Source: a virus
Reading direction: 5' to 3' (one strand)
Virus record (IMG/VR): IMGVR_UViG_3300006810_000040
Coordinates: 1 to 64,000 of that record
Length of the DNA: 64,000 nucleotides
Of this stretch, positions 19,847-62,892 are shown one piece after another. The position numbers were made by a program, and so were the translations under genes. Numbering within the stretch: the stretch's first letter is position 1; each line of letters opens with the position of its first letter. Under the pieces are notes generated by a model. The model was not told the DNA's origin and did no database searches. It worked only from the letters and a program-made list of their open reading frames with translations.

Positions 19847-20010
19847 ACCGCCAGCTCACCGCCAGGGGACCGCCAGCTCACCGCCAGCCCACCGCCAGGA
19901 GACGCCAGTGGGTCCACCGCGATTTCAACGCCATACGCCACGGGACCGACAGGGGACCGCCAGGGGACCGACAGGGGACCGCCAGGCCGCCGCCAGTCCG
20001 CCGCCAGTGG
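19847..20010. repeat. Array of 11-bp direct repeats (ACCGCCAG + 3 nt)
   Basis: About 12 copies of an 11-bp unit, core ACCGCCAG followed by CTC, GGG, CCC or similar, start at 19847, 19858, 19869, 19880, 19891 and 19902, then after a gap at 19945, 19956, 19967, 19978, 19989 and 20000. Some copies read ACCGACAG or GCCGCCAG. The array fills the whole gap between two neck genes and runs into the ribosome-binding site of the 20018 gene. The period is not a multiple of three and there is no coding sense. Confidence 0.85.
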
Positions 20011-40911: not shown

Positions 40912-41769
40912 TCACGCCTCCCCCAGGGCCCGCAGCATGGCCTCCCGCGTGTTGGCACCCCAGCGGCCGTCGGCGGCCAGGCCCTGCTTGCGCTGGAAGT
41001 TCACCAGCGCGGCCCTGGTCTTGGGCCCGAACGTGCCATCGACCGTGAGCTCGTAGCCCAGGGAGTTCAGGCCGATCTGGCGCTGCCGCCAGGTTTCCAA
41101 GCTGATCACGGCCTTGGCGATGCCGAGCTGGGTGTGCGCGTTGAGCGCGCGCACGATGGCGGACAGCGTCCCCCCCGGGCAGGCCGGCTTGCCGAAGTGG
41201 TGGTGCGCGGCCAGGCGCGGCGCGCGGTCCTGGGCAGCCGCCAGCACCGGCTCGATGGCCCGCACCCAGAGCCCGATGGCGACCTCGAGCTGCGACACCG
41301 TCGGCTCGACCCCCTCGGGGTTGTGTTCGCTGGCGAAGTTGCCCATGAAGAGCACGCCCAGGTAGTCGCTGTTCTCGTCGCCGCGCGTGTACCGGTCGCC
41401 CTGCGACCACGTCCGCACGTCCCAGTCCCAGCACAACCAGATGCCGCCTTCCGGGTCCACGACCAGCCAGTAGGCGATGCCCGGGGCCCCGCCGTCCTTC
41501 AGGTGACTGTCCGGGCCGCAGTGGTAGCGCGCGATGCGCTGCACGGCCTGCCACCACTCGTTCCGCTCATGCTCATGGTCGCGGCCTGTTTGGACAGACG
41601 TGCGCGTCGGGGTCGCGGCCTGGTGGTGGTAGCAGGCCCCGCGGGGCTTGTTGCGGCGTTGGCCGTACTTGCGGGTCGCGTGGACCGGCAGGTGGCCCCG
41701 CACGTCGTGGAACGCGACGCCGAGCTCCGCGGCCAGTGCCTTGAGGGCTTCGATCAGCTGCTTGTTCAT
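40912..41769 (-). CDS. Endolysin: N-acetylmuramoyl-L-alanine amidase with peptidoglycan-binding domain
   Basis: 285 aa from the ATG complement at 41767-41769, which has GGAGAT 5-6 nt upstream; the longer frame would read through the iteron repeats. Residues ~20-205 are an amidase-2/PGRP-type domain (His48/49 in YHHQAA, IAYWLVVDPEGGIW, HHHFGKPACPGG as zinc and catalytic region). The last ~60 residues (LTVDGTFGPKTRAALVNFQ) are a PG_binding_1 domain. It cleaves the amide bond between MurNAc and L-alanine to lyse the host. No signal peptide, so a holin is needed; none was identified with certainty. Confidence 0.9.
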   Translation of the reverse strand: MNKQLIEALKALAAELGVAFHDVRGHLPVHATRKYGQRRNKPRGACYHHQAATPTRTSVQTGRDHEHERNEWWQAVQRIARYHCGPDSHLKDGGAPGIAYWLVVDPEGGIWLCWDWDVRTWSQGDRYTRGDENSDYLGVLFMGNFASEHNPEGVEPTVSQLEVAIGLWVRAIEPVLAAAQDRAPRLAAHHHFGKPACPGGTLSAIVRALNAHTQLGIAKAVISLETWRQRQIGLNSLGYELTVDGTFGPKTRAALVNFQRKQGLAADGRWGANTREAMLRALGEA

Positions 41770-41804
41770 GGGGATCTCCAAGGGGTCAGGGACCGCCGAC
41801 AGTG

Positions 41805-41947
41805 CGGACGGTAGTGCGGACGGTAGTGCGGCAGAAGTGCGGACATAAGTGCAGACATTTTTCGGCCAAGTAGCCGGAATCACTCAGGGTGGGTGCAGAC
41901 AGACTGCGGACACAAGTGCGGACATTCCGCGGACACAAGTGCGGACA
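41805..41947. repeat. 143-bp iteron-bearing inverted repeat, left arm
   Basis: The reverse complement of this segment matches 45858-46000. The inner 107 bp (41805-41911 against 45894-46000) differ at 3 positions by my reading; the outer 36 bp at about 8. It contains multiple TCCGCACTACCG-like 12-bp iterons (as complement) and a 19-bp direct repeat GCGGACACAAGTGCGGACA at 41906-41924 and 41929-41947. On the minus strand it lies 36 bp upstream of the endolysin start. Confidence 0.93.
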
Positions 41948-41956
41948 CGGCGGCTT

Positions 41957-43009
41957 TCAACCACGGCCACAGAGGCCGCGGAAATCGCAGGTCGTGCAGG
42001 CGCGGGCTCCCTCATCCAACGGAGGGAAGGCCGAGGCCGGCAAGGGTTCGTTGCGGGTGGTGTCGCCATCGACGATCAGCGCGGCGAGACGCCCCGCGTC
42101 CTTCTGCAGCTTGTCCCACGCGCGCTGGCGGCTGGCCTTGGTGGGTTGGGCCACTTCGATCCAGGGCCACGGCCCGGAGCCATCAGGGCGCTGCTTGTAC
42201 TGGCCGACGTAGTGCAGCGCCATGTCCATGGACTCAGGCGGGCACCCGTAGTGAGCGCCAGCCCAGAGGGCGTACAGGTCCACCTGGGCCTTGTCGGCCT
42301 TGATGATGGCCGCGGCCTTGTCCGCGTCGTAGCGCTCCAGCGGCGAGGTTTTCCAGTCGATGATGCGCAGCCGGTTGTGCGGCTTCGCCACCCGGTGCAG
42401 GACAGCGTCGGCGGACACCCAGACCACGACCTTGCCCACGCCGGGCATGGTGAGCTCACGCCGAAACCGCTGCTCGTTGCTGAGCAGGATGATGCGCTTG
42501 TCGATGATCGACGCCGTCAGCGCCGCGACCTGGCCGTTGACAGCCTCGATCAGGGTCCGAAGGCGCGCGCGTGCCTTCTCCAGCTTCTCCGGGGTGTCCG
42601 GGTCGTTGTAGTAGATCTCTGCGAGCGGCGGGCACTTCTTGGGGTTGCCCTGCCACAGGCGGGCCTCGGTGTTGTGGACGGCCAGGTCCAAGCCGCGCAG
42701 AGCGCGCTCCACCTGCGTCTCGACCGGGGCGGGCCGGTAGCCGTTGGCGGCGTCGCGCAGCGCCTTGGAAGCCGCCGCGTGGACCTCGAGGCCGATGAAG
42801 GCGGCCAGACCCCGCACCTTGGACTCGACGTAGGCCCGCCGACGCCAGCTGTCCGAGGGCGCATCCCAGCCACCCCAGGCCGCGTACCGCTTGAAGAACA
42901 CAGCCCGCGTGCAGATGCCGAGCTGCTTGACGGCCGACGCCGAGATCGTGAACTCGGGCCACGGGCCCAGGTCCCCCTGGTACGGCTTGAGGTGCAGGTC
43001 CTGGCTCAC
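41957..43009 (-). CDS. RecB/Cas4-like PD-(D/E)XK exonuclease
   Basis: 350 aa from a GTG at 43009 with AGGAG 7 nt upstream. Opens with FTISASAVKQLGICTRAVFFKRY (Cys33), the usual start of Cas4/PDDEXK_1 nucleases; Asp201 and Asp218-Trp-Lys220 (IIDWKTS) are the catalytic core; the C-terminus has CTTCDFRGLC. The four cysteines are arranged like the iron-sulfur cluster site of the AddB/Cas4 group. It probably resects DNA ends for phage recombination. Overlaps the upstream gene by TGA/GTG. Confidence 0.85.
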   Translation of the reverse strand: MSQDLHLKPYQGDLGPWPEFTISASAVKQLGICTRAVFFKRYAAWGGWDAPSDSWRRRAYVESKVRGLAAFIGLEVHAAASKALRDAANGYRPAPVETQVERALRGLDLAVHNTEARLWQGNPKKCPPLAEIYYNDPDTPEKLEKARARLRTLIEAVNGQVAALTASIIDKRIILLSNEQRFRRELTMPGVGKVVVWVSADAVLHRVAKPHNRLRIIDWKTSPLERYDADKAAAIIKADKAQVDLYALWAGAHYGCPPESMDMALHYVGQYKQRPDGSGPWPWIEVAQPTKASRQRAWDKLQKDAGRLAALIVDGDTTRNEPLPASAFPPLDEGARACTTCDFRGLCGRG

Positions 43010-43356
43010 TGGTGGCTCCTGGTCTGGCGTGGTTCGACCCAGCGCGTCCAGCGCAGCTCGGCCACCAGCTGGTTGGGGCTCCAGCTGATGACCTCGCACA
43101 GCACCCAGATCGGGAAGTGCCGCGCCCAGTCCATGCGCTCCTGCGTCTCCGCGCCGCCCTGGAACAGGGCCAGCATTTTCGGCTCAGCTGCGTTGCGCCG
43201 CCAACTGCGCCCAGGGGGCCAGGTGTCCGGGGACATGGTGGGCATCGTCTGCGTGTACTCGGGCAGCGCCTTCATGGCGCGCGCGCTCAGGAACCGCGGG
43301 GGCAGAGCCCCCGTTGTCTCCTCGATGCGCTCGTACCAGTCCAAGTCACCGCTCAT
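43006..43356 (-). CDS. Unknown small protein coupled to the RecB-like nuclease
   Basis: 116 aa from the ATG complement at 43354-43356. Tryptophan-rich (WPPGRSW, WARHFPIWVLCEVISW) with no recognised domain. The stop overlaps the nuclease start and the start overlaps the end of the 44254 gene, so it belongs to the same transcript and may be a partner of the nuclease. Confidence 0.6.
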   Translation of the reverse strand: MSGDLDWYERIEETTGALPPRFLSARAMKALPEYTQTMPTMSPDTWPPGRSWRRNAAEPKMLALFQGGAETQERMDWARHFPIWVLCEVISWSPNQLVAELRWTRWVEPRQTRSHQ

Positions 43357-44254
43357 CGACTGGGTTCTCCTCGAGCCATGATGCGACGGCGTCCGCGAGC
43401 TCGTCTTCGTAGCGCTCAGCGAGCGCTTCGCTGGCCACCTGGCCAAGGCTGATCGGTTCGCAGACCGCATCGGCCAGATAGGCCCGCACGACGAAGTCGG
43501 GCTCGTCGCCGATCTCCCAGGCGTCCGGGCCCCCGCTGGTCTTCGCGTCCTTTCCCCGGTCGGTCACCGTCACCCGCAGGACCACGGCGTCGTCCATCAC
43601 GACGTGCTCAAAGTCGTAGTGGTCGCCCAACGCGATGACCTCAATCAACTCGGCCACGTCCGAGTTCAGCGAGGCCGCCGGCACCCAGTCCCAGGTCAGG
43701 TCAGCCGGTAGGACCTCGATGGGGTAGTGCTGCTGCGGGCCGAAGTTCAGGTCCAGCACCACCTTCTCGGTGCTCCGGCGCGTCCAGCCGTCCCGCTCCT
43801 CGAGCTTGGGCCGGGTGAACGTCATGCGGACGCGCCAATGCAGGACCCAGCTGGCCCGCAGGCCGCCGCCGCCTGCCGCGAGCAGCGGGCCAAGTACGGC
43901 ATCCGTCAGGGTCCACGCCATAGTCACAGTCCACATGCCCATGCGCAGCGCGCCGGGGCCGGTTGCCGAGCGAGACCAGCGCCGCCCCTGGCCATCCAGG
44001 TGATGGACGACCTCATCGTCCTGCTCGCGGAGAGCATCCATCAGCTCGTCGATCCGACGCAGGACCTGCACCTCCCCGCCGAAGGTGCCGGGCGAGATGG
44101 GCCACCAGCTGGGCGGGGTCTCTCCCGTGCTGACCAGGTGCTTCAGGTGGCGGCTGAACCAACCGAACCAGGCGGCCGGTGTCCGAGCGTAGAGCTTGAC
44201 CCCGTCACCGAAGATGAAGTCGTTGTCCGCGGTGAAGCGGTTGATCGTAGGCAT
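43346..44254 (-). CDS. Unknown protein, first gene behind a conserved phage promoter
   Basis: 302 aa. Mixed alpha/beta; contains a Gly-rich hydrophobic stretch (AVLGPLLAAGGGGLRASWVL) near residues 120-140 and an acidic C-terminus. No family recognised. It is preceded by one of three copies of the conserved promoter/leader of this genome, which makes it probable that it is made early together with the downstream nuclease. Confidence 0.65.
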   Translation of the reverse strand: MPTINRFTADNDFIFGDGVKLYARTPAAWFGWFSRHLKHLVSTGETPPSWWPISPGTFGGEVQVLRRIDELMDALREQDDEVVHHLDGQGRRWSRSATGPGALRMGMWTVTMAWTLTDAVLGPLLAAGGGGLRASWVLHWRVRMTFTRPKLEERDGWTRRSTEKVVLDLNFGPQQHYPIEVLPADLTWDWVPAASLNSDVAELIEVIALGDHYDFEHVVMDDAVVLRVTVTDRGKDAKTSGGPDAWEIGDEPDFVVRAYLADAVCEPISLGQVASEALAERYEDELADAVASWLEENPVDER

Positions 44255-44258
44255 GTTT

Positions 44259-44313
44259 CCTCCGTCGAGGCGTTCGATGGTGCGAGCGTAAGCGACGCGC
44301 TCAGGGCCGTCAA
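44259..44313 (-). promoter_or_regulatory. Conserved promoter/leader, copy C
   Basis: Read on the minus strand: TTGACG (44308-44313), 16 bp, TTACGC (44286-44291), then the 17-nt leader GAACGCCTCGACGGAGG (44259-44275) containing the ribosome-binding site, 4 nt before the 44254 start. The same arrangement occurs at 48926-48980 and 61573-61630. Confidence 0.75.
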
Positions 44314-44762
44314 GTCCCTCGGCGCAGCGACTGGTCGCGACGGGTCAGCTCGCGACTGAGCGCCTTGTAGCGTGCCTCGTAGCCGCTGAAGATGGCGCTG
44401 AGCAGCTTGTAGCGCGCGGTGTGGACATCCAGCCGCTCGCCGGCCGCTATGACGGCGGGGTTTCCTTTGGCCGCCTCCCGTCGCTCAGTGACGTTGCCGG
44501 TCGCCTGCAGGAAGCACCGGGTGCTGTTGACCTTGACCTCGGCCTCGTAGGACGTGCGCTCAACGTCGGCGAGCGCCACCTGGTAGCCGGCGTAAGCGAC
44601 CTGAGCCGCATACCAACCGAGCTGGTGGCTGAGCTCCTGGTCCACCAGGTCCGCCATGTTGGCGGGCCAGTGGGGTTCAGGCCCCGGGGCCTGCGTCGGG
44701 ATGGGTAGACCGGTCTGGCGCACGTAGGCCATCGCGGCCTTCGTCGCGGGATGCTCTGCCAT
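44310..44762 (-). CDS. Unknown helical protein, possible recombination mediator
   Basis: 150 aa, AGAGG 7 nt upstream. Almost entirely helical (QLGWYAAQVAYAGYQVALADVERTS ... GYEARYKALSRELTRR). Small helical phage proteins of this type include UvsY-like ssDNA/recombinase mediators; here it is near RecB-like and annealing genes, so that is a reasonable but weak guess. Its stop lies just inside promoter copy C. Confidence 0.55.
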   Translation of the reverse strand: MAEHPATKAAMAYVRQTGLPIPTQAPGPEPHWPANMADLVDQELSHQLGWYAAQVAYAGYQVALADVERTSYEAEVKVNSTRCFLQATGNVTERREAAKGNPAVIAAGERLDVHTARYKLLSAIFSGYEARYKALSRELTRRDQSLRRGT

Positions 44763-45534
44763 GTGGAAACCTCTTCACAGGTTGCGTGGGGTCTACCACG
44801 GCATCCGGGAGGATGTCCTCCACCAGCTGCTGAAAGCTCACAGGGTCCTGGCCCTCAAGCCGCGCCAGCTCCGCGTGGACGCGGGATCCGTACACGTCGA
44901 TCCAGTCCCGGGCGATCCGCTCGCTGTAGGTGTGCCAGCCGCTCTCAGGTCCCAGTCTGCGCGTGCGGATTCGGAACCGCACGCCGTCCGGGCGCTCGAG
45001 GACCGTGCGGCCAGTGCGGCCTGGCCCGATCACCAGGTACGGCCCGACCCAGCCCTCGGCCCGACGCCACCAAAGCCGGTTCTGTGGCTCGATGCGCTCG
45101 CGCACGACATCCTCGTCGTGCCGCCAGTAGGCCACGCCTGGCACCCGCATCAGCTGCTGCTCCTCGCGCGTCAGCTGGAGTTCGCCCCGCGCGACCAGTC
45201 GGCGGATCACGTCGCGGACCCGGACAACCAGCCGATCCGCGCGCATGACCTCATGGTCAACCTCCATCAACAGGGCCAGCATCCTGGCTTCCGCTGTGCG
45301 GACGCGGTCGCGGACGATGTAGTCCACGACGCCAACGAAGTCGGAGGCCCGGACACCCGCACGTTTCAGCCGGCCATTGAGCGTAGACCGTGGCACGCCC
45401 AGAGCATCGGCCACGTCGTCGGTGCTGTAGCGCATCTGACGCCGACGCCGACGTGGAGGCTCAGGCACCGGTGTGCGCTCCTCCCAGATCCGCCGCTCAG
45501 GGGGCGGAAGCCTACCGGCCGTCGATTTTGACAT
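44677..45534 (-). CDS. Helix-turn-helix protein, possible regulator
   Basis: 285 aa from the ATG complement at 45532-45534. Residues ~33-60 (YSTDDVADALGVPRSTLNGRLKRAG) form a clear HTH. A later part (VGPYLVIGPGRTGRTVLERPDGVRFRIRTRRLG) looks like a small beta-barrel. The last 86 nt overlap the 44762 gene, and the C-terminal ~28 residues are low-complexity, so the true end may be earlier if a base is missing. Starts inside the end of the KH gene. Could control the divergent iteron region; unproven. Confidence 0.65.
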   Translation of the reverse strand: MSKSTAGRLPPPERRIWEERTPVPEPPRRRRRQMRYSTDDVADALGVPRSTLNGRLKRAGVRASDFVGVVDYIVRDRVRTAEARMLALLMEVDHEVMRADRLVVRVRDVIRRLVARGELQLTREEQQLMRVPGVAYWRHDEDVVRERIEPQNRLWWRRAEGWVGPYLVIGPGRTGRTVLERPDGVRFRIRTRRLGPESGWHTYSERIARDWIDVYGSRVHAELARLEGQDPVSFQQLVEDILPDAVVDPTQPVKRFPHGRASRDEGRDGLRAPDRSTHPDAGPGA

Positions 45535-45778
45535 CCAGCTTCGCGTCCCAGCCCACAGCCCTGGCCATGCCACGCGCCAAGCGGCGGATGGCGTCGATGG
45601 TCTTGCCCCCGCGGCCGAGCAGGTAGCCCTTCACGGAGTCGGCGCACTCCAAGTAGAACAGGGCCTCGCCACGCGGGCCCTCGGCGTAGGTCACGTTCAA
45701 GGGCTCGCCAGCATCCAGCTGGCCCTTGGCGATGGTCGCGATGTAGGCCCGCACGTCATCGGCGTGGGTAGTCGGCAC
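45512..45778 (-). CDS. KH-domain RNA-binding protein 1 (KhpA-like)
   Basis: 88 aa from a GTG at 45778 with TGGAG 8 nt upstream; the longer frame would translate the iteron repeats. The sequence VKGYLLGRGGKTIDAIRRLARGMARAVGW has the GxxG loop (GRGG) and flanking helices of a KH domain, the layout of bacterial KhpA. KH proteins bind single-stranded RNA or DNA. A second KH protein is encoded at 61639-61947. First gene of the minus-strand operon, transcribed away from the right inverted-repeat arm. Confidence 0.82.
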   Translation of the reverse strand: MPTTHADDVRAYIATIAKGQLDAGEPLNVTYAEGPRGEALFYLECADSVKGYLLGRGGKTIDAIRRLARGMARAVGWDAKLDVKIDGR

Positions 45779-45857
45779 GGCGTGTCTCCAGGACCCCCCA
45801 GGTGTAGCACGCCAACACCACGACGCGAAGCCCGCGGCCTGTACTCGACCCCCAAAT

Positions 45858-46000
45858 GTCCGCACTACCGTCCGCGGGGTGTCGGCACTTTCGTCCGCAG
45901 TCTGTCGGCACCCACCCTGAGTGATTACGGCTACTTGGCCGAAAAATGTCTGCACTTATGTCCGCACCTCTGCCGCACTACCGTCCGCACTACCGTCCGA
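45858..46000. repeat. 143-bp iteron-bearing inverted repeat, right arm
   Basis: Inverted copy of 41805-41947. Repeats of the TCCGCACTACCG type are seen at about 45860-45903 and 45956-46000. The arm ends ~20 bp before the most AT-rich stretch of the intergenic region and ~200 bp before the replication operon. Together, 45779-46202 is a 424-bp gene-free region holding this arm, an AT-rich tract (46009-46037), a palindrome, a promoter and a hairpin. Confidence 0.93.
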
Positions 46001-46047
46001 CACGCGCGTAGTAGAACATCTACATAGACATCTAGAACCCCCCTAAA

Positions 46048-46063
46048 GGCCCCCCAGGGGGCC
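46048..46063. promoter_or_regulatory. 16-bp GC palindrome upstream of replication promoter
   Basis: GGCCCCC and GGGGGCC flank a 2-nt centre. It lies 5 bp upstream of the -35 box at 46069 and could be an operator or a terminator for transcription arriving from the left. Confidence 0.5.
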
Positions 46064-46202: not shown

Positions 46203-47198
46203 ATGAAGCCATGGGGCACCATCGACTGGAAGCATTGGCCAGCCAAGCGGCACTGGCTGCTGGCGCTGCGGGTTCCATGGCACGAGTCAGACGTGATCAC
46301 CGACCTCCGCTACTGGGACGAGGTCAGGCGAGCGGCAGCCGACGGCGAGCACTTGCCGAAGCCACCTGGCTACCGCCGGCTGATGGCTGACTGGAGCTGG
46401 GGCGAGCGGCGCACCAGGTCGATGATGGCCAACGAGGGCCGGTGGAAGGACTCCCTGCACCGCCGCCAGGAGGACACCCCGGTGGTCCAGGCCGCCAAGC
46501 GGCGCGTGGCCGCCCTGGAGCGCAAGCTCGCCGCTCTGGAGCAGCAGCTCGACGACCAAGGCGGCGCTGGCGACGCGCCCAGCGCCGATGCGCGTGCGCG
46601 GCTGGTGGACGACTGCGTCGCTGAGCTGCAGAAGGTCTACCCGAAGCTGGCGAAGGAGGTCCTGGGCAAGAAGGTGGGGGCCACCTGGGGCCGTGGCGAC
46701 GCCTTCCGCCAGCGCGTGACCCGGGCGATCGGCAAGACCCAGCGCTTCGCCAAGACCACAGGCCGCGAGCTCGACCCGGTCAACGTGTTCGTCATCCTGG
46801 CCGAGTGGGTGTTCTACGCCCCCGCGATGGAGGCCCAGGGCTACCGCGGCACCGCGGATCCCATCGACGGCGTGCTGCGGCCGACGAAGCTGGAGCGCAA
46901 CATCCAGGCCGCGCTCGACTGGCGCACCAACGGCAGCACGCGCGCTGAGCTCACCCCCAGCGGCCTGAGCAGCGAACAGAAGGCCAAGATGGCCGAGGCG
47001 TTCGCCCTGACCCTGCGCGCCTTGAGCAAGGGCCGCACCCACCGCATCACAGACGCGGACTTCGTTGGCCGAGAGGACGCCGAAGCCCTTGTCTCTGCAA
47101 GCCGCGCCATCGCCCAGCAGTCCTATGCGGGCGACGACCCCAAGTTCCTCAAGAAGACCTGGCTGGGCGTCTACGCGCAGCACCGGAGTGACGCATGA
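46203..47198 (+). CDS. Putative replication initiation/helicase-loading protein
   Basis: 331 aa, AGAGGA ~9 nt upstream. N-terminal region (WGTIDWKHWPAKRHWLLALRVP, GYRRLMADWSWGERRTRSMM) looks like a winged-helix DNA-binding domain as in phage O/DnaD-like proteins; a coiled coil (~95-115) and a helical C-terminal domain follow. Coupled by ATGA to the DnaB helicase gene, the classic place for a loader. If the upstream iterons are an origin, this would be the natural candidate to bind them; that is inference. Confidence 0.68.
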   Translation: MKPWGTIDWKHWPAKRHWLLALRVPWHESDVITDLRYWDEVRRAAADGEHLPKPPGYRRLMADWSWGERRTRSMMANEGRWKDSLHRRQEDTPVVQAAKRRVAALERKLAALEQQLDDQGGAGDAPSADARARLVDDCVAELQKVYPKLAKEVLGKKVGATWGRGDAFRQRVTRAIGKTQRFAKTTGRELDPVNVFVILAEWVFYAPAMEAQGYRGTADPIDGVLRPTKLERNIQAALDWRTNGSTRAELTPSGLSSEQKAKMAEAFALTLRALSKGRTHRITDADFVGREDAEALVSASRAIAQQSYAGDDPKFLKKTWLGVYAQHRSDA

Positions 47199-48559
47199 GC
47201 GACGAGCGCACCTTCCCCCAGTCCCTGGACGCAGAGCGCGCGTGGCTGGGCGGCATCATGCTGATGGCGACCGCCGACAACATGGGCCCGGTCCTGGACC
47301 GCCTTGAGGGCTTCGACGGCGAGGACTTCTACGTCGCGGGGCACCAGCGGCTGCACGAGCTGATGCTGCACATGGCGCGCAAGGGCCAGCCCCCTGAGAT
47401 GCTGGGCCTGGTTGACGAGATCATGGCCCGCGGCATCGTGGAAGCGGTCGGCGGCCTGGCCTACGTGTCCCAGCTGCCTGAGCTGGTGCCCAGCAGCGAG
47501 AACCTGAACTACTACGCGGACCTGGTCCGGGAGAAGGCCGCACGCCGTCGGGTGCTGGCGTTCGCGGCTAGCCTGACCGAGGCTGCCCACCGCGGCGACG
47601 AGGACATCAGCACCAGCCTGGACGCCGCCGAGGCCGGGTTCATGGCCCTGCGTGGCTGGGAGAAGCAGGGCGGCACCATGCTGAACGCCTCCCAGCTGTT
47701 CGCCAAGACCTACAACTGGGGCCGCGACAACTGGGAGCGGCAGAACCGCATCCGGTCTCACTGGTGGGAGCTCAACCGGGACCTGGTCACCCTCCGGCCT
47801 ACGTCCCTGGTCATCCTCGCGGCCCGGCCTGCGATGGGCAAGACCGCGTTCGCCCTGCAGCTCGTAGATGCCGCGGCCCGGCCCGAGATCAACCCCGACA
47901 TGCACGGGGCCGGCGTGTTCAGCCTGGAGATGATGTCTGAGGCCCTGGGTGGGCGGATGGTCGCCCAGAACAGCAAGGTGCCCGGTCTCGCGATCATGAG
48001 CGGCCTGAAGGAGCAGCACCTACGCGACCGCTTCGACCAGGTCACCGCCGAGCTGGGCAACACCCTGATCATGGCCATCGACGACGACCCCAACCTGAGC
48101 ATGGGCACGTTCCGCACCAAGTGCCGCAAGATGAAGGCGATGCTGAAGGGGCAGATGGCCCTGGTGGTGGTGGACTACCTGCAGCTGTTCAGCTTGCCCA
48201 GCGGCTCCGAGAACACATCGACCAAGGTGGGCATGGTCAGCCGGATGCTCAAGCTCGTCGCGAAGGAGATGAACGTCTGCGTCCTGTGCCTGTCGCAGCT
48301 CAACCGGAAGTGCGAGACGCGCGGCGACAGGCGGCCGATGATCTCCGACCTCCGCGACTCCGGGGCCATCGAGCAGGACGCCGACGCCATCCTGTTCCTC
48401 TACCGGGACGAGTACTACAACGCGAGCACCGAGGAGCCGGGCGTCTGCGAGGTCATCATCGCCAAGCAGCGCGGAGGCCCCACCGGCACCATCAAGCTGC
48501 ACTGGAACGGACCCGCTACACGCTTCAGCGACCTGGTCGCGCCGCCCAGGGACCAATGA
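47195..48559 (+). CDS. dnaB: Replicative DNA helicase (DnaB family)
   Basis: 454 aa. Short N-terminal domain (DAERAWLGGIMLMA), then the RecA-type core with Walker A ARPAMGKTAF (~209-218), Walker B-like VVVDYLQLF (~324) and C-terminal RGGPTGTIKLHW, all as in DnaB/gp41-type hexameric helicases. It unwinds the phage replication fork 5'-3'. Overlaps the loader-like gene by ATGA and the next gene by TGA/ATG. Confidence 0.93.
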   Translation: MSDERTFPQSLDAERAWLGGIMLMATADNMGPVLDRLEGFDGEDFYVAGHQRLHELMLHMARKGQPPEMLGLVDEIMARGIVEAVGGLAYVSQLPELVPSSENLNYYADLVREKAARRRVLAFAASLTEAAHRGDEDISTSLDAAEAGFMALRGWEKQGGTMLNASQLFAKTYNWGRDNWERQNRIRSHWWELNRDLVTLRPTSLVILAARPAMGKTAFALQLVDAAARPEINPDMHGAGVFSLEMMSEALGGRMVAQNSKVPGLAIMSGLKEQHLRDRFDQVTAELGNTLIMAIDDDPNLSMGTFRTKCRKMKAMLKGQMALVVVDYLQLFSLPSGSENTSTKVGMVSRMLKLVAKEMNVCVLCLSQLNRKCETRGDRRPMISDLRDSGAIEQDADAILFLYRDEYYNASTEEPGVCEVIIAKQRGGPTGTIKLHWNGPATRFSDLVAPPRDQ

Positions 48560-48986: not shown

Positions 48987-49466
48987 ATGCAGCTCGACCC
49001 CACTGATGTCCGCGTGCGCTTGCGGGAGCAGCGAGAACGCAGCGGCCTCAGCTTCCAGGACCTGGCCGACTTCGGCTGTCCGCGCGCCAGCGTGGTCCAG
49101 CTCGAGAGCGGGCGCAACCGCCTGCTGTTGGATCTGGTGGTTCGGATGGCCCATGCCTACGGCACGACGCTGGAGCACCTGCTCTATGGCGACGCGGACA
49201 TGGCCACGGCCCCACCCGGCTACTGGCCCGACGACTTCGACGAGTTCGTGGACGGCTACCTGGACCAGGTCCGGGCCCGCCTGGATGCCGCAGTCCGGGC
49301 GTCGGCAAGAACGAAGACCTACCTGAGCAGCGAAGCCGGGTTCGGGAACCACCGCATGAGTCTGTACTTCGTAGTGCGTGGCGAACGACCGCTGCGCGTG
49401 CCCCCGCTGGTCGCCCTGGCCACGCTGGAAGACCTGGACCCCATGGACCTGTTGAGGATTAGCTGA
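48987..49466 (+). CDS. XRE-family (Cro/CI-like) transcriptional regulator
   Basis: 159 aa. Residues ~10-66 (VRLREQRERSGLSFQDLADFG, SVVQLESGRNRLLLDLVVRMAHAYGTTLEHLLYG) are a textbook XRE helix-turn-helix. The C-terminal ~80 residues lack the Ser-Lys protease of CI repressors, so it is probably a Cro-like or stand-alone regulator. Its own promoter copy A and position within the early region suggest it controls early transcription. Confidence 0.85.
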   Translation: MQLDPTDVRVRLREQRERSGLSFQDLADFGCPRASVVQLESGRNRLLLDLVVRMAHAYGTTLEHLLYGDADMATAPPGYWPDDFDEFVDGYLDQVRARLDAAVRASARTKTYLSSEAGFGNHRMSLYFVVRGERPLRVPPLVALATLEDLDPMDLLRIS

Positions 49467-55989: not shown

Positions 55990-56340
55990 ATGCCAAAGAT
56001 GACGACCGAGGAGCGTTTCGAGCGCTTCCACCAAGAAAACCCCCGTCTTTACCGGGAGCTACGCAGCAGGGCTGTAGCTCTCCACGCCGTTGGTGCGACC
56101 CGCACCAGCACCAAGGCCCTGGTCGAGGTCGTGCGCTACGACCACGCCATCAGAACCCGCGGCGAGGAGTTCAAGGTCAACAACAGCTTCACGGCGTTCT
56201 ACGCCCGCGTGCTGGTCGCTGACCGTCCCGAACTCGCCAGCATCCTGACCATGCGAGCCATGAACCCGGAGTACGTCCCCGACCTGGTCAATCTCGGCCT
56301 GCGGGCGAAGTTCGACGGCGCTCAAGCGCGGCTGGTATGA
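55990..56340 (+). CDS. Conserved small phage protein (unknown function)
   Basis: 116 aa from the ATG at 55990. The pattern ERFERFHQENPRLYRELRSRA ... FKVNNSFTAFYARVLVADRPELASI corresponds to a widespread small phage protein of unknown function that I recognise by its 'FHxxNPxxY' and 'NNxFxAxYAR' parts. Overlaps the UvrD-like gene by ATGA. Confidence 0.72.
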   Translation: MPKMTTEERFERFHQENPRLYRELRSRAVALHAVGATRTSTKALVEVVRYDHAIRTRGEEFKVNNSFTAFYARVLVADRPELASILTMRAMNPEYVPDLVNLGLRAKFDGAQARLV

Positions 56341-58093
56341 GCGTCGCAGGCCCCCTGGAGGCCATGCTGGCCCAGGCGAACGACGCCCAGCGCCAGGCCA
56401 TCGAGACCCGAGGCCGGCGCGTCCTGGTGGTCGCCGGGGCCGGCACCGGGAAGACCTACACCCTGGTCGGCCACGCCGCATCGCTCCTGGTCGAGGGCGT
56501 GCCCGCCGAGCGCATCCTCTGCGTCACCTTCACCAACAAGGCCGCCGACGAGATGCGCGAGCGCCTGACGGCCCTGCTGCCCGGCTACGAGCTGCCCGCG
56601 ATCCGCACCTTGCACAGCTTCTGCGGCGAGCTGCTGCGTCAGGAGGCCGATGCCCTGGGGCGCGACGCCGACTTCTCCATCTACGACGACTACGACTACA
56701 TCGCCCTGTTGCGCGCTGCTTCGCGGAACCTCGGCGACGCCAAGTGGAAGAGCCGGCGCGTGAAGACGCTGGAGAAGACCAAGACGGTCACCACCCTGGT
56801 GAGGGGCTGGCTGGACGAGTCCAACGCCTTCACGTTCAGCGACCTCGAGGCCCGCGCCTTGCGTCTGTTGAAGGAAGACCCCGAGGTCCACGCGCGCTGG
56901 CTGGGTCGGTACGAGCACCTGCTGATGGACGAGACCCAGGACACCAGCGCCGCGCAGTACCTGATCGTCGAGCGCCTGGAGCCCGCCCACACCTTCTATG
57001 TCGCAGATCCCCGACAGCGGATCTATGGCTGGCGTGGTGCCGACGGCCAGAAGCTGGTGGAGCTCAGCAACGACGGCGACACCGTCGTGATCCGCCTGCG
57101 CACCAACTACCGGAGCACGCCGGAGATCGTCGATGTCGGCAACCGACTGGCGACTGGCGACTGGGGCGACCTGGAGGCCGCTGTCGGCACCCAGGAGCAC
57201 ACCCCGCGCGTCCTGCAGGCCCAGACGGCTGGAGAGACCGCTGAGGCCGCTGTGCGCGCCCTGGGCAGCCTGGAGGGCAAGACTGTGGCCGTGCTGGGCC
57301 GGCGCTGGGCCGATCTGCGCGAGATCAGCGCCCGCTTCCACGCGGTCGGGATCCCTCACCTGATCTACGACCCCAGCACCGACGACGCCTGGAGCAGCCG
57401 TATCGGCCGGCGCACCGTGCGGGCGCTGGGCCTGGTCCAGAACCCTGCGGACAACGTCGCAGCCCGGTCGCTGGCCAACTGGGGCGAGCAGCGGTGGAGC
57501 CACCTGGAGCTGATGACCCTCGAGGCCCGCGCCACGCGGGAGCGCACCCACCTGTTTGAGCTGCTGGGCGAGGCAGCCCGGCTTGGATGCGGATCTACAC
57601 CGCCGTCCTCGAGGCCAAGGCCGCAGACACGCCGGGCCGCCCCTGTGACTGGGCGGATCTGTTCTTTCGGGAGCTCGATTGCGTCAGCCACCAGGCCGGC
57701 ACCGACATCGTGGACACGCTCCGCAACTGGGGCACCATCCCGGGCTTCCTGCGCTGGTGGGTCGAGCGGTCGGTCCAGGAACGGGTGCAGTGGGACAGCC
57801 CCGTCGTCCACCTGCTCACGGTCCACGCCAGCAAGGGCCTGGAGTTCGACTACGTCGTGGTCGCCAACGTCGTGGACGGCAGCTACCCCAGCAGCCGGAA
57901 GGACGCAGACCCCGACGAAGATCAGCGCGTGCTGTATGTCGCCTGCACGCGAGCTCGAGAGCGCCTGCTGCTCACCGTCCCCAAGGTCAAGCGCGTCAGC
58001 TGGGGGGCCGGCGTCACCAACCTGGACCCCAGCCCCTTCCTGGGCCACCTTCCCCACCCAATCGAGAGCTGGCCTTGCACCCCAAAGAAGTAG
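56337..58093 (+). CDS. UvrD/PcrA-like DNA helicase, interrupted by a -1 frameshift at ~57584
   Basis: The first frame has all N-terminal SF1 motifs: Walker A AGAGTGKT, CVTFTNKAADEM, TLHSFC, LLMDETQD, DPRQRIYGWRG, LRTNYRST. At about 57584 coding sense moves to the -1 frame (MRIYTAVLEAK from 57587), which carries TVHASKGLEFDYVVV and VLYVACTRARERL (motifs V and VI) and stops at 58093. The original frame stays open by chance to 59729 but is Arg/Ser/Pro-rich. An extra T after CTT near 57584 would restore one ~585-aa helicase. No slippery sequence is present, so an assembly error or an inactivating mutation is more likely than programmed slippage. Confidence 0.82.
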
Positions 58094-58284
58094 AGCTGGG
58101 CCGTCGCGTGGCTGTCCGCAACGGCAGCGCGCGCCAGGTCGGCATCATCGCGGCCGTTCTCGATGCGCGGATCTGGTTCAAGCAGGACCTGCCCCAGAAC
58201 ATCACCCTTCAGACCCGTGTCCGGGTCGAGTTCGACGACGGCGCGACGCTGGAGCGGACTGTCGCCAACCTCCTGGAGCCCTGA
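58075..58284 (+). CDS. Small beta-barrel-like protein, unknown
   Basis: 69 aa from a TTG at 58075 with GAGAG ~8 nt upstream; a GTG at 58108 is the alternative. Sequence GRRVAVRNGSARQVGIIAAVLDARIWF ... VRVEFDDGATLERTV reads like a small SH3/KOW-type barrel. Overlaps the helicase C-terminus by 19 nt and the next gene by one base. Confidence 0.6.
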   Translation: MHPKEVELGRRVAVRNGSARQVGIIAAVLDARIWFKQDLPQNITLQTRVRVEFDDGATLERTVANLLEP

Positions 58285-59729
58285 TGCCCTTCCCCTTTGA
58301 CCTCAAGTCGCCCATCTACGCCTTTGAGCTCCGCGGGCCGGAGGGCTGGACGGTCCCCCGGATCAGCCTGCCGGCGCTGCGTGATGCCATCCAGGACACG
58401 GTCCTGGGGCCTGGCATGCTGCCGGAGGCCCCCAGCCCCGACGACATGCGCAGCGACTATCTTGAGAAGCGTGGCTGGGCCTGGCTGGACGACCAGGACG
58501 TGGTCAGCGTCAACGAGTGGCTGTGTTTCGCGGCGCGGCGCTACATCAAGAAGGTGCCCGCCAAGACGCTCAAGGCCCTGGTCGCCAGGCAGCAGCGGCT
58601 CATCGAGGAGGGCGGAGGCAAGTTCACCCGCGAAGAGCGCAAGGTGTTCCGGGAGAACCTGGAGCGCGAGCTGCTGATGCGTGCGCCCCCCGATGTCTCC
58701 GAGACCCCCGTGCTCTACGACTGCCACGCTGGCGTCTTCTACCTGTTTACGTCCTCCGAGAACGTGCGGAAGGCGATGGTGGAGTCGGTCATGCGCATCC
58801 TGCGCCAGGTGTACGACGAGAACAGGCTCTGGCCCGAGGAGCAGACCCTCACCCGCTTCCTGGACTACACGCGCCCTGGGGCCGTCCTGCCGGGCGAGTT
58901 CGATCTGCGCTTCCTCACCTGGACCAGTCAACAGGCCCTGCATGGCCGCTTCATGCACGACGGCATCGAGCGCGGGATCGGACTGGAGCTGCTGAGCAAG
59001 CTGGACCTGGAGATCGACAGCGACAAGCTCAAGGTCACCGGCCACAAGAGCGTCGAGCGGTTCGTCCTGACCGAGACCGAGAGGGAGGATGGCGTCGGCA
59101 AGGTCACCAGCGTCGAGATGCGGATCCACGTCGCACCCGACGCTACCTACGAGGTCACCATCGACACCGAGGGCCGACTCAAGCGCGCCGAGTTCACCTA
59201 TCCCGGCCTGCCCAAGGTCGGCAGGAGCGAGTGGGAAGAGGCCATCCTGCTGTGCGGCAGCCGCGTCAAGCAGCTCGTGCAGGCCCTGCACTGGCTCTAC
59301 CGCGCCTTCGACGGCACCTGGCTGTCCGACGCGATGGAAGAGGAGCCCCAGGAGCAGTTTTTCCCCGGCGCACCGCTGGCCGTCCAGGTCGATGACGCAC
59401 AGCCGGAGTGGTGGGTTCTCCTCGAGGCCAACGCACGCGAGGGCGAAGCCCGCGACGCCGACCGCCGAGCTGGCCAGACCAGCCTGCACGACGCCATCGA
59501 GGACCTGCGCAACGACCCGGCCCCGCTCAGCGCGTTCCAGCTGGCCTGCGAGCAGGACAAGGGCCGCGCCACCGCCATCAAGCTGCGCAAGATGCTGGAG
59601 GCCGCCATCGGCCAAGGCCCCTTGTCCCTGACCAACTGCGTGGACCACATCGAGGACCAGCACGGGATCCCCGGCGACCTGTATGGACAGGCAGAGGCCA
59701 TGTACGCGCTCACCGGTTCGGAGGAGTGA
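58284..59729 (+). CDS. RdgC-like recombination-associated protein
   Basis: 481 aa from the ATG at 58284 overlapping the previous stop; it is in the same frame as the false extension of the UvrD-like gene but separate from it. Residues ~90-175 (KKVPAKTLKALVARQQRLIEEGGGKFTREERKVFRENLERELLMRAPP, LYDCHAGVFYLFTSS) follow the RdgC pattern of a Lys/Glu-rich helix, 'LL.RA' and a strand beginning with D. RdgC binds duplex DNA as a ring and inhibits RecA. The C-terminal ~150 residues are acidic and less RdgC-like, so call it RdgC-related. Confidence 0.62.
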   Translation: MPFPFDLKSPIYAFELRGPEGWTVPRISLPALRDAIQDTVLGPGMLPEAPSPDDMRSDYLEKRGWAWLDDQDVVSVNEWLCFAARRYIKKVPAKTLKALVARQQRLIEEGGGKFTREERKVFRENLERELLMRAPPDVSETPVLYDCHAGVFYLFTSSENVRKAMVESVMRILRQVYDENRLWPEEQTLTRFLDYTRPGAVLPGEFDLRFLTWTSQQALHGRFMHDGIERGIGLELLSKLDLEIDSDKLKVTGHKSVERFVLTETEREDGVGKVTSVEMRIHVAPDATYEVTIDTEGRLKRAEFTYPGLPKVGRSEWEEAILLCGSRVKQLVQALHWLYRAFDGTWLSDAMEEEPQEQFFPGAPLAVQVDDAQPEWWVLLEANAREGEARDADRRAGQTSLHDAIEDLRNDPAPLSAFQLACEQDKGRATAIKLRKMLEAAIGQGPLSLTNCVDHIEDQHGIPGDLYGQAEAMYALTGSEE

Positions 59730-61971: not shown

Positions 61972-62042
61972 GGCCGGGACCTCGCCCTCGCACGGGTGCT
62001 TCCAATCCCCCCCCCCTTCGCACCCCCCGGCGAGGCCCGGCC
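61972..62042 (+). promoter_or_regulatory. Long structured RNA element (bulged 14-bp stem plus inner 6-bp stem)
   Basis: GGCCGGG (61972-61978) and CCTCGCC (61980-61986) pair with CCCGGCC (62036-62042) and GGCGAGG (62029-62035), with one bulged A; inside, GGGTGC (61994-61999) pairs with GCACCC (62020-62025). The apical loop has a run of ten C. It fills most of the gap between the KH gene and the 62068 gene and ends at that gene's leader. May be an attenuator or a binding site for the adjacent KH protein. Confidence 0.65.
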
Positions 62043-62070
62043 TTTCCCACGACTCGACGGAGTATCCATG
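62041..62070 (+). repeat. 30-bp leader repeat, copy 1 (copy 2 at 62356-62385)
   Basis: An identical 30-bp sequence, containing ACTCGACGGAG and ending in the start codon, precedes both the 62068 and 62383 genes. A short CCCCGCATAGCCTTT-type sequence precedes it in both places (about 61954-61969 and 62346-62360). It shares the CTCGACGGAG ribosome-binding core with the three conserved promoter leaders. Confidence 0.85.
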
Positions 62071-62355
62071 CAATCCGACATCACCACCGACGCCGACGCC
62101 CGCTTCCGTCCCGCAATGGAGGACCTGAAGCTCCTGGGCATCGAGCCCGCCCACTACACCATCGCGACGGGCAAGCCCATCACGGTGAACGTGTGGGGCG
62201 GCGCTGCCGCAGCGCGGCTGCTGGAAGCTGCTGGCCACACCGTCAAGTGGGACGAGCCCACCCGCGAGTTCGGCCACGACTTCAGCTTTTTCCGGTGCTC
62301 GGCCTACGGCCTGACCATCATCGGCGGCGACTACGCCCGGAACGTCCCCGCATAG
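62068..62355 (+). CDS. Small unknown protein
   Basis: 95 aa. Its N-terminus (SDITTDADAR) resembles the start of KH protein 2 (DPITTNTDAR), suggesting a shared origin of the leader and first codons. The remainder is mixed alpha/beta (ITVNVWGGAAAARLLEAAGHTVKWDE); no recognised family. Read from the first of two identical 30-bp leaders. Confidence 0.65.
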   Translation: MQSDITTDADARFRPAMEDLKLLGIEPAHYTIATGKPITVNVWGGAAAARLLEAAGHTVKWDEPTREFGHDFSFFRCSAYGLTIIGGDYARNVPA

Positions 62356-62382
62356 CCTTTCCCACGACTCGACGGAGTATCC

Positions 62383-62892
62383 ATGCACGACATCGACCAA
62401 GCTTATGACCGCACCTACGCCCCGTTCCTGGAGCGCGTCACCCTGAAGTCCCTGCGGATGCACAGGGCGCTGAGCCGCGACTCGCAGGCGCTGACCGCGA
62501 CCGTCTACCTGGACGGCGTCCTGGTGGGCACTGCCGAGAACAACGGTGGCGGTGGTGAGACCCTGATCGACGCCCGTGGCCCTGCCCGAGAAGCGTGGGC
62601 CGAGTTCAACGCGGCCGTGCGCGCTGAGGGCGAGAAGCACGGCCTGAACTACCTGGGTGGCCACGACGTGGTCGATCAGGTCGCGCACGCCGTCAGCGAG
62701 GACAAGCGGCACCGCCGCCGCACCAGCACCCACGTCGTCTTTCAGGGTCAGGACGGCAAGACATACGAGGTCAAGTGGCCCCAGCTCGCCAAGCTCTGGC
62801 GGGCGAACCCTGCCGACGCGCGCAAGCGCTTCGAAAGCGCCATGACCGACCTGGCCGTTGCCAGCTACATCAACGACCGCTACGCGGCATAG
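62383..62892 (+). CDS. Unknown protein
   Basis: 169 aa, from the second 30-bp leader. Beta-rich N-terminal half (ALTATVYLDGVLVGTAENNGGGGETLIDARG), basic middle (KRHRRRTST) and a region beginning THVVFQGQDGKTYEVKW. No family recognised. Probably an early accessory gene by location. Confidence 0.65.
   Translation: MHDIDQAYDRTYAPFLERVTLKSLRMHRALSRDSQALTATVYLDGVLVGTAENNGGGGETLIDARGPAREAWAEFNAAVRAEGEKHGLNYLGGHDVVDQVAHAVSEDKRHRRRTSTHVVFQGQDGKTYEVKWPQLAKLWRANPADARKRFESAMTDLAVASYINDRYAA

Follow-up and report, generated by a model that had tools for sequence, protein, structure and literature searches.

The stretch analyzed here, bases 1-64000 (hereafter the window) of the 68,351-bp uncultured virus contig IMGVR_UViG_3300006810_000040 (G000), carries two inverted copies of a bipartite array of short direct repeats, or iterons, one before an endolysin gene (the left arm) and the other ahead of the gene for a DnaB-like replicative helicase (the right arm). 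The favored reading, to which a probability of about 0.5 is given, is that the arms represent two functional copies of one protein-binding array, the right one serving as an origin or initiator operator and the left one as a further copy before the endolysin. This reading is built on the internal structure of the arms, on the distribution of the differences between them, and on the position of the right arm relative to dnaB.

Structure and divergence of the inverted arms

The arms and the spacer within the left one are located as follows.

41801..41947, plus strand: left arm, a bipartite iteron array that fills the gap between the stop of the nuclease gene (41957) and the start of the endolysin gene (41769)
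45857..46003, minus strand: right arm, the same array, with 11 substitutions and one 1-bp indel relative to the left arm
41858..41891, no strand assigned: spacer of 34 bp between the left-arm iteron blocks, with one substitution relative to the right arm

Each arm consists of five plus five direct copies of the 10-bp word AGTGCGGACA spaced by 11-12 bp. In the left arm, where the sense orientation is on the plus strand, the iterons start at 41801, 41813, 41825, 41836, and 41848 in the first block and at 41892, 41903, 41915, 41926, and 41938 in the second. From the last start of the first block to the first start of the second is 44 bp, and a common period of approximately 11.3 bp keeps all ten sites in phase. 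The head-to-tail arrangement of short repeats about one helical turn apart that characterizes iteron origins is therefore present in the arms, and the iterons of both face inward. The term “iteron-rich” applied in a preliminary description of this DNA was apt, with 8 and 7 sites in the two arms matching AGTGCGGACA at no fewer than 8 of 10 positions, compared with 108 in the whole of the approximately 90-kb map described below.

A repeat search returned the pair 41805-41947 and 45857-45999 (143 nt, 92% complementary, 3,909 nt apart), which a gapped BLAST alignment lengthened to 41802-41947 and 45857-46003 with a 1-bp indel (E = 1.5e-52). The inverted repeat reported in the preliminary description therefore stands, while the right arm given there, 45858-46000, was placed one base too high. 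The mismatches counted there were recovered exactly, with three in the 107-bp part (41836, 41877, and 41897) and eight in 41912-41947, although this divergent 36-bp part, described as outer, is actually the inner end, towards the enclosed genes. The arm sequence is present just twice in G000. Large inverted repeats are indeed unusual, as had been claimed: none of at least 50 bp was found across 538 kb of other phage loci, and none of at least 40 bp in three complete phages with related terminases, namely Aeromonas phage ST4, Thermus phage Lalka27a, and Pseudomonas phage Dolphis. Since the arm sequences differ, a simple assembly duplication of the left arm as the source of the right one is considered of low probability.

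The limits of similarity between the arms coincide with the first and the last iteron. None of the 11 substitutions falls within the iteron core TGC.GAC, which occupies 60 of the 147 columns (hypergeometric P = 0.0024, with the core defined from the left arm alone and the P value approximate, since some substitutions are adjacent and not independent). Because substitutions avoid the core, both arms look as though they have been retained by selection as putative protein-binding sites, and this pattern also argues against the right arm being a copy of the left made in assembly. The 24-nt core of the spacer has a match in just one other IMG/VR contig. Comparison of the region and the arms with phage and plasmid records gave no DNA similarity beyond chance, a search of Rfam gave no match, and the skew of GC at third codon positions (GC3) displayed no clear switch around the arms.

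Position of the right arm relative to dnaB

The features lying between the right arm and the end of dnaB are given below.

46004..46060, no strand assigned: AT-rich stretch adjoining the right arm, with the palindromes GTAGA-ACA-TCTAC and TAGA-CA-TCTA
46203..47198, plus strand: protein of 331 amino acids (aa) of no known family, directly before dnaB
47195..48559, plus strand: DnaB-like replicative helicase (Pfam DnaB_C, E 1.9e-77; phrog_19)

The right arm is situated 1.19-1.34 kb upstream of dnaB. For comparison, the 200-bp window richest in repeated 8-mers was determined in 22 non-redundant IMG/VR loci encoding a DnaB relative. In 15 of these loci, where 2.4 were expected, it was located upstream of dnaB at a distance of 200-1,600 bp (P = 1e-10). 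With random anchors the mean was 2.4 and 8 was never exceeded; the mirror interval downstream of dnaB contained the most repetitive window in 2 of the 22 loci. In Thermus phage Lalka27a (PQ109076), a distant relative by TerL and DnaB, an array of GTGCAC iterons of approximately 280 bp covers the start of an annotated O-like initiator gene, located before DnaB, and extends upstream of that start. Because of this survey and the Lalka27a array, the right arm can be placed at the usual location of phage origin iterons. The region 46000-46050 is 52% AT against about 31% for the genome. The stretch 46004..46060, which in the approximately 90-kb map belongs with the 60-bp windows of highest AT content, is from its sequence a candidate unwinding element or operator.

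Clusters of short repeats just upstream of dnaB mark likely origins in many phages, which offers a simple means of placing origins in uncultured phage genomes. It is the left arm, being a second and inverted copy, that is the unusual element, and the dnaB comparison makes it stand out as such. Wider searches for the repeat pattern were also conducted. In the AT-rich phage loci L048, L051, and L052, the same 12-bp tandem word, by which these loci had been selected, occurs in or beside genes that appear replication-like by eye, a point in favor of an origin role. The sole match to the two-block iteron pattern in IMG/VR was an unrelated 12-bp tandem repeat, and GTDB contigs searched for GTGCGGAC in triple tandem yielded 98 matches, which were for the most part perfect tandem repeats of 12 bp within coding sequence and not informative.

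Proposed function and the third array

From its position, the 331-aa protein is a candidate replication initiator. A phage-encoded DNA-binding protein, most likely this product of 46203-47198, would bind the right copy at the origin or operator beside the initiator-dnaB operon, and the same protein would also bind the left copy, 4 kb away, before the endolysin. Binding there would repress or time the lysis gene and, through pairing of the left copy with the right one by looping or handcuffing, would limit initiation; repression, titration, and pairing are each routes by which the left copy may act. The arrays, the selection-like pattern of their substitutions, the placement of the right arm where origins are typical, and the neighboring genes are observed; binding and the identity of the binder, the right arm as origin, and the role of the left copy are what we infer. 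If one array were both origin and a site before a lysis gene, genome copy number would be tied to the timing of lysis via a single DNA-binding protein.

A third array of this kind is present in the window.

19847..20010, plus strand: third bipartite array, word ACCGCCAG, 6 + 6 copies, 11-bp period, 44-bp start-to-start gap

It fills the space that separates the gene of a virion protein from a neck/tail-completion gene, and lies 7 bp before the start codon of the latter. Its layout is that of the arms and its repeat word is different. Together with the arms, it makes up the only non-coding 11-12-bp arrays that stand out in the approximately 90-kb map. In an extended and rather doubtful version of the favored reading, the arrays would communicate in cis: the initiator at the origin array would pair with the inverted endolysin array and a related protein would occupy the third array, upstream of the neck gene; in this way genome copy number would directly time lysis and late expression.

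Elsewhere, an 11-bp TGRGACAAAAW array is found in the low-GC prophage loci L008:17020-17110 and L009:18480-18600, between an ArpU-like regulator (assigned by eye) and the terminase region. Because of these arrays and the third array, a purely transcriptional role is kept open as the main rival. The arrays would then be control sites, at the level of transcription or of the 5' leader, of a phage regulon with no origin function, in which one regulator (the helix-turn-helix (HTH) protein at 44677-45534, the XRE protein at 48987-49466, or another) acting before the replication operon, the KH operon, and the endolysin would order early and late expression, and the third array would belong to a sister regulon. 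All three arrays are intergenic and upstream of a gene, and in each of them CCGC reads on the sense strand of the gene that lies outward or downstream; the L008 and L009 arrays beside late-type regulators point the same way. Conversely, scans at both arms detected no sigma-70-like promoter or terminator (other promoter types of the hosts lay outside these scans), the location relative to dnaB points to replication, and the repeat word of the third array is not that of the arms. This rival is regarded as possible, if tentative.

Several observations weigh against two binding sites of an origin-associated protein. In many of the comparison loci the repeats apparently fall within a gene and not 200 bp ahead of one, and no near relative carrying both arms was found. 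The left arm is devoid of an AT-rich neighbor, and no DnaA box is present near the right arm. The candidate initiator gave no family match, no relative, and no detectable similarity to the O-like protein of Lalka27a, and its AlphaFold model was useless, with a predicted local distance difference test (pLDDT) score of 40. Moreover, the third array precedes a virion gene, and in other prophages the 11-bp array is near late-type genes, both implying that such arrays are not solely origins.

Repeats of a further kind were seen in other loci. In two Mu-like-looking Meiothermus prophages (L092:3620-3670 and L131:7825-7880), a cluster of GTGCGGACA sites beside a repressor gene possibly represents operator or transposase-binding sites. 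In L046, L049, L050, L058, and L083, inverted GTGCGGACA pairs are located inside the coding sequence of small-terminase-like genes, where they are possible packaging-site repeats.

Neighboring genes

The segment between the arms is a minus-strand operon of six genes, in order KH, HTH, a 150-aa protein, a 302-aa protein, a short open reading frame (ORF), and a PD-(D/E)XK exonuclease. These genes, other than the short ORF, are listed with the endolysin beyond the left arm.

45512..45781, minus strand: KH-domain (KhpA-like) protein, first gene of the enclosed operon (Pfam E 8.5e-8)
44677..45534, minus strand: helix-turn-helix protein, a second candidate for array binding (weak HTH_23 match, E 0.0046, below the cut-off)
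44310..44762, minus strand: 150-aa protein, unknown
43346..44254, minus strand: 302-aa protein, unknown
41957..43012, minus strand: PD-(D/E)XK (RecB/Cas4-like) exonuclease (Pfam PDDEXK_1, E 8e-12; phrog_69)
40912..41769, minus strand: endolysin with amidase and peptidoglycan-binding domains, its start codon 32 bp from the left arm

As had been pointed out, the arms share their polarity relative to the outward genes, with the endolysin on the minus strand and the 331-aa ORF and dnaB on the plus strand. The KH operon, on the minus strand, also has the right arm upstream of it. Relatives of the nuclease, HTH, and 331-aa proteins were sought in phages, plasmids, and IMG/VR with none found; the AlphaFold model of the HTH protein was unusable. 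No Rep-family initiator was found.

The product of 45512-45781 is in itself an observation of a phage-encoded KhpA-like KH RNA-binding protein. Further along the window, 56337-59729 encodes a 1,130-aa protein in which an N-terminal UvrD helicase is combined with an RdgC-like segment at approximately residues 711-826, an unusual combination. A perfect direct repeat of 33 bp (48 bp with small gaps) occurs at 62040-62086 and 62355-62399, 315 bp apart.

Genome map and possible rearrangement of the enclosed segment

A sister contig from a different sample, IMGVR_UViG_3300007345_000035 (G001; 64,146 bp), matches G000 at 99.9% from 41895 down to 1 and then continues for an extra 22.2 kb. Its far end is a terminase gene, 90% identical to the terminase at the right end of G000, and by sequence overlap the two contigs together suggest a genome of approximately 90 kb. 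In this map G000 and G001 overlap at both ends (L003:6172-8118 and the G001 end), with TerL DNA 90% identical there. A third contig, L060, is likewise broken within TerL.

G001 begins within the left arm at 41895, 2 bases from a position that differs between the arms. The chance of a random contig end landing in an arm is below 1%, and the left arm is therefore probably an assembly branch point in the G001 sample, for which repeat sharing, strain mixture, or inversion could each be the cause. G001 has the left-arm alleles at both of the diagnostic sites that it covers and does not contain the opposite junction.

The preliminary description raised the possibility that recombination between the arms inverts enclosed genes as a phase switch. 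In such a switch, the six-gene operon would be flipped and read-through into the endolysin relative to the replication genes would change. The arms are inverted and 92% identical, and the start of G001 within one of them is compatible with structural heterogeneity, of which it is no demonstration. Against this, tyrosine integrase (PF00589) and serine recombinase (PF00239) are absent from G000 and G001, where controls were positive, although a host enzyme is conceivable. No contig with the opposite order was found in the viral collection, in which only G000 spans the segment, and the arms match exactly over no more than about 40 bp at a stretch. Furthermore, the KH operon would retain an equivalent array upstream in either orientation, hence a switch of the operon is not an obvious outcome of inversion. 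With 147 bp at 92% identity available, rare inversion by homologous recombination is possible. A dedicated invertible segment, having gained no positive support, is accordingly judged very unlikely. The other suggestion made at that time, that the arms are duplicate control regions recognized by a single phage protein, is better supported than the switch by the iteron-sharp limits of the arms, the sparing of the core, and the origin-typical position of the right arm.

The same geometry might be expected of the terminal repeats of a mobile element of approximately 4.2 kb with subterminal transposase-binding repeats, in the manner of Tn7 or Mu ends. The repeated sites face inward at both ends, TG/CA is found near the outer edges, similarity is highest at the outer end, and TGCGGACA repeats are also present near the left end of the Mu-like-looking Meiothermus prophages. 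However, neither G000 nor G001 contains an rve transposase, none of the enclosed genes encodes a transposase, the flanks (GACAG and CGCGC) display no target-site duplication, and composition is unchanged across the segment. Such an element is hardly credible.

Comparison with known systems

Origins of the phage lambda type have their O iterons within the initiator gene, which precedes the helicase module. The present arrangement is similar in that direct iterons are found at the start of a replication operon just ahead of the helicase gene, with AT-rich DNA beside the right array. It differs in that the array is outside the initiator ORF and consists of ten asymmetric 10-bp iterons in two blocks, a second inverted copy is present 4 kb away, and the initiator is only a candidate. 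The replication region of Lalka27a shares the initiator-then-DnaB gene order and distantly related TerL and DnaB, whereas its iterons are GTGCAC, in a single array with no inverted copy.

Plasmid P1, with oriR and incA, is an iteron replicon with a second control array. In Vibrio cholerae, ori2-min and ori2-inc likewise form an iteron replicon with a second control array, in which related 11-12-bp iterons are divided between two separate arrays (PMC6090056). Two separate arrays with a spacing of about one helical turn, and a possible handcuffing or titration partner, are common to these replicons and the arms. Here, in contrast, the genome is that of a phage, the arrays are near-identical, inverted around a recombination-type operon, and one of them precedes a lysis gene; the Rep-family initiator is missing from what was found.

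The parC site of plasmid R1 (parMRC) consists of 11-bp direct repeats arranged as two groups of five with a short spacer between them (PMC4949242), and the 5 + 5 direct repeats and short spacer of the arms are alike. The arrays might on this basis be centromere-like partition sites of a phage maintained as a plasmid, for which the three arrays in the genome and the two blocks of approximately five 11-bp direct repeats, as in parMRC, would speak. No ParA-type ATPase was found, however, and ParM and ParR were not detected by Pfam, PHROG, or NCBIfam matches in neighboring ORFs (a PF06406 search had silent controls and was uninformative); the iteron word, the gene context, and the two inverted copies also differ from parC. 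A partition role is thus thought highly improbable. Because gene content does not support membership in the parC family and no Rep-family initiator was found, the arrays would be better regarded, by analogy, as working like iteron replicons and parC than as members of either.
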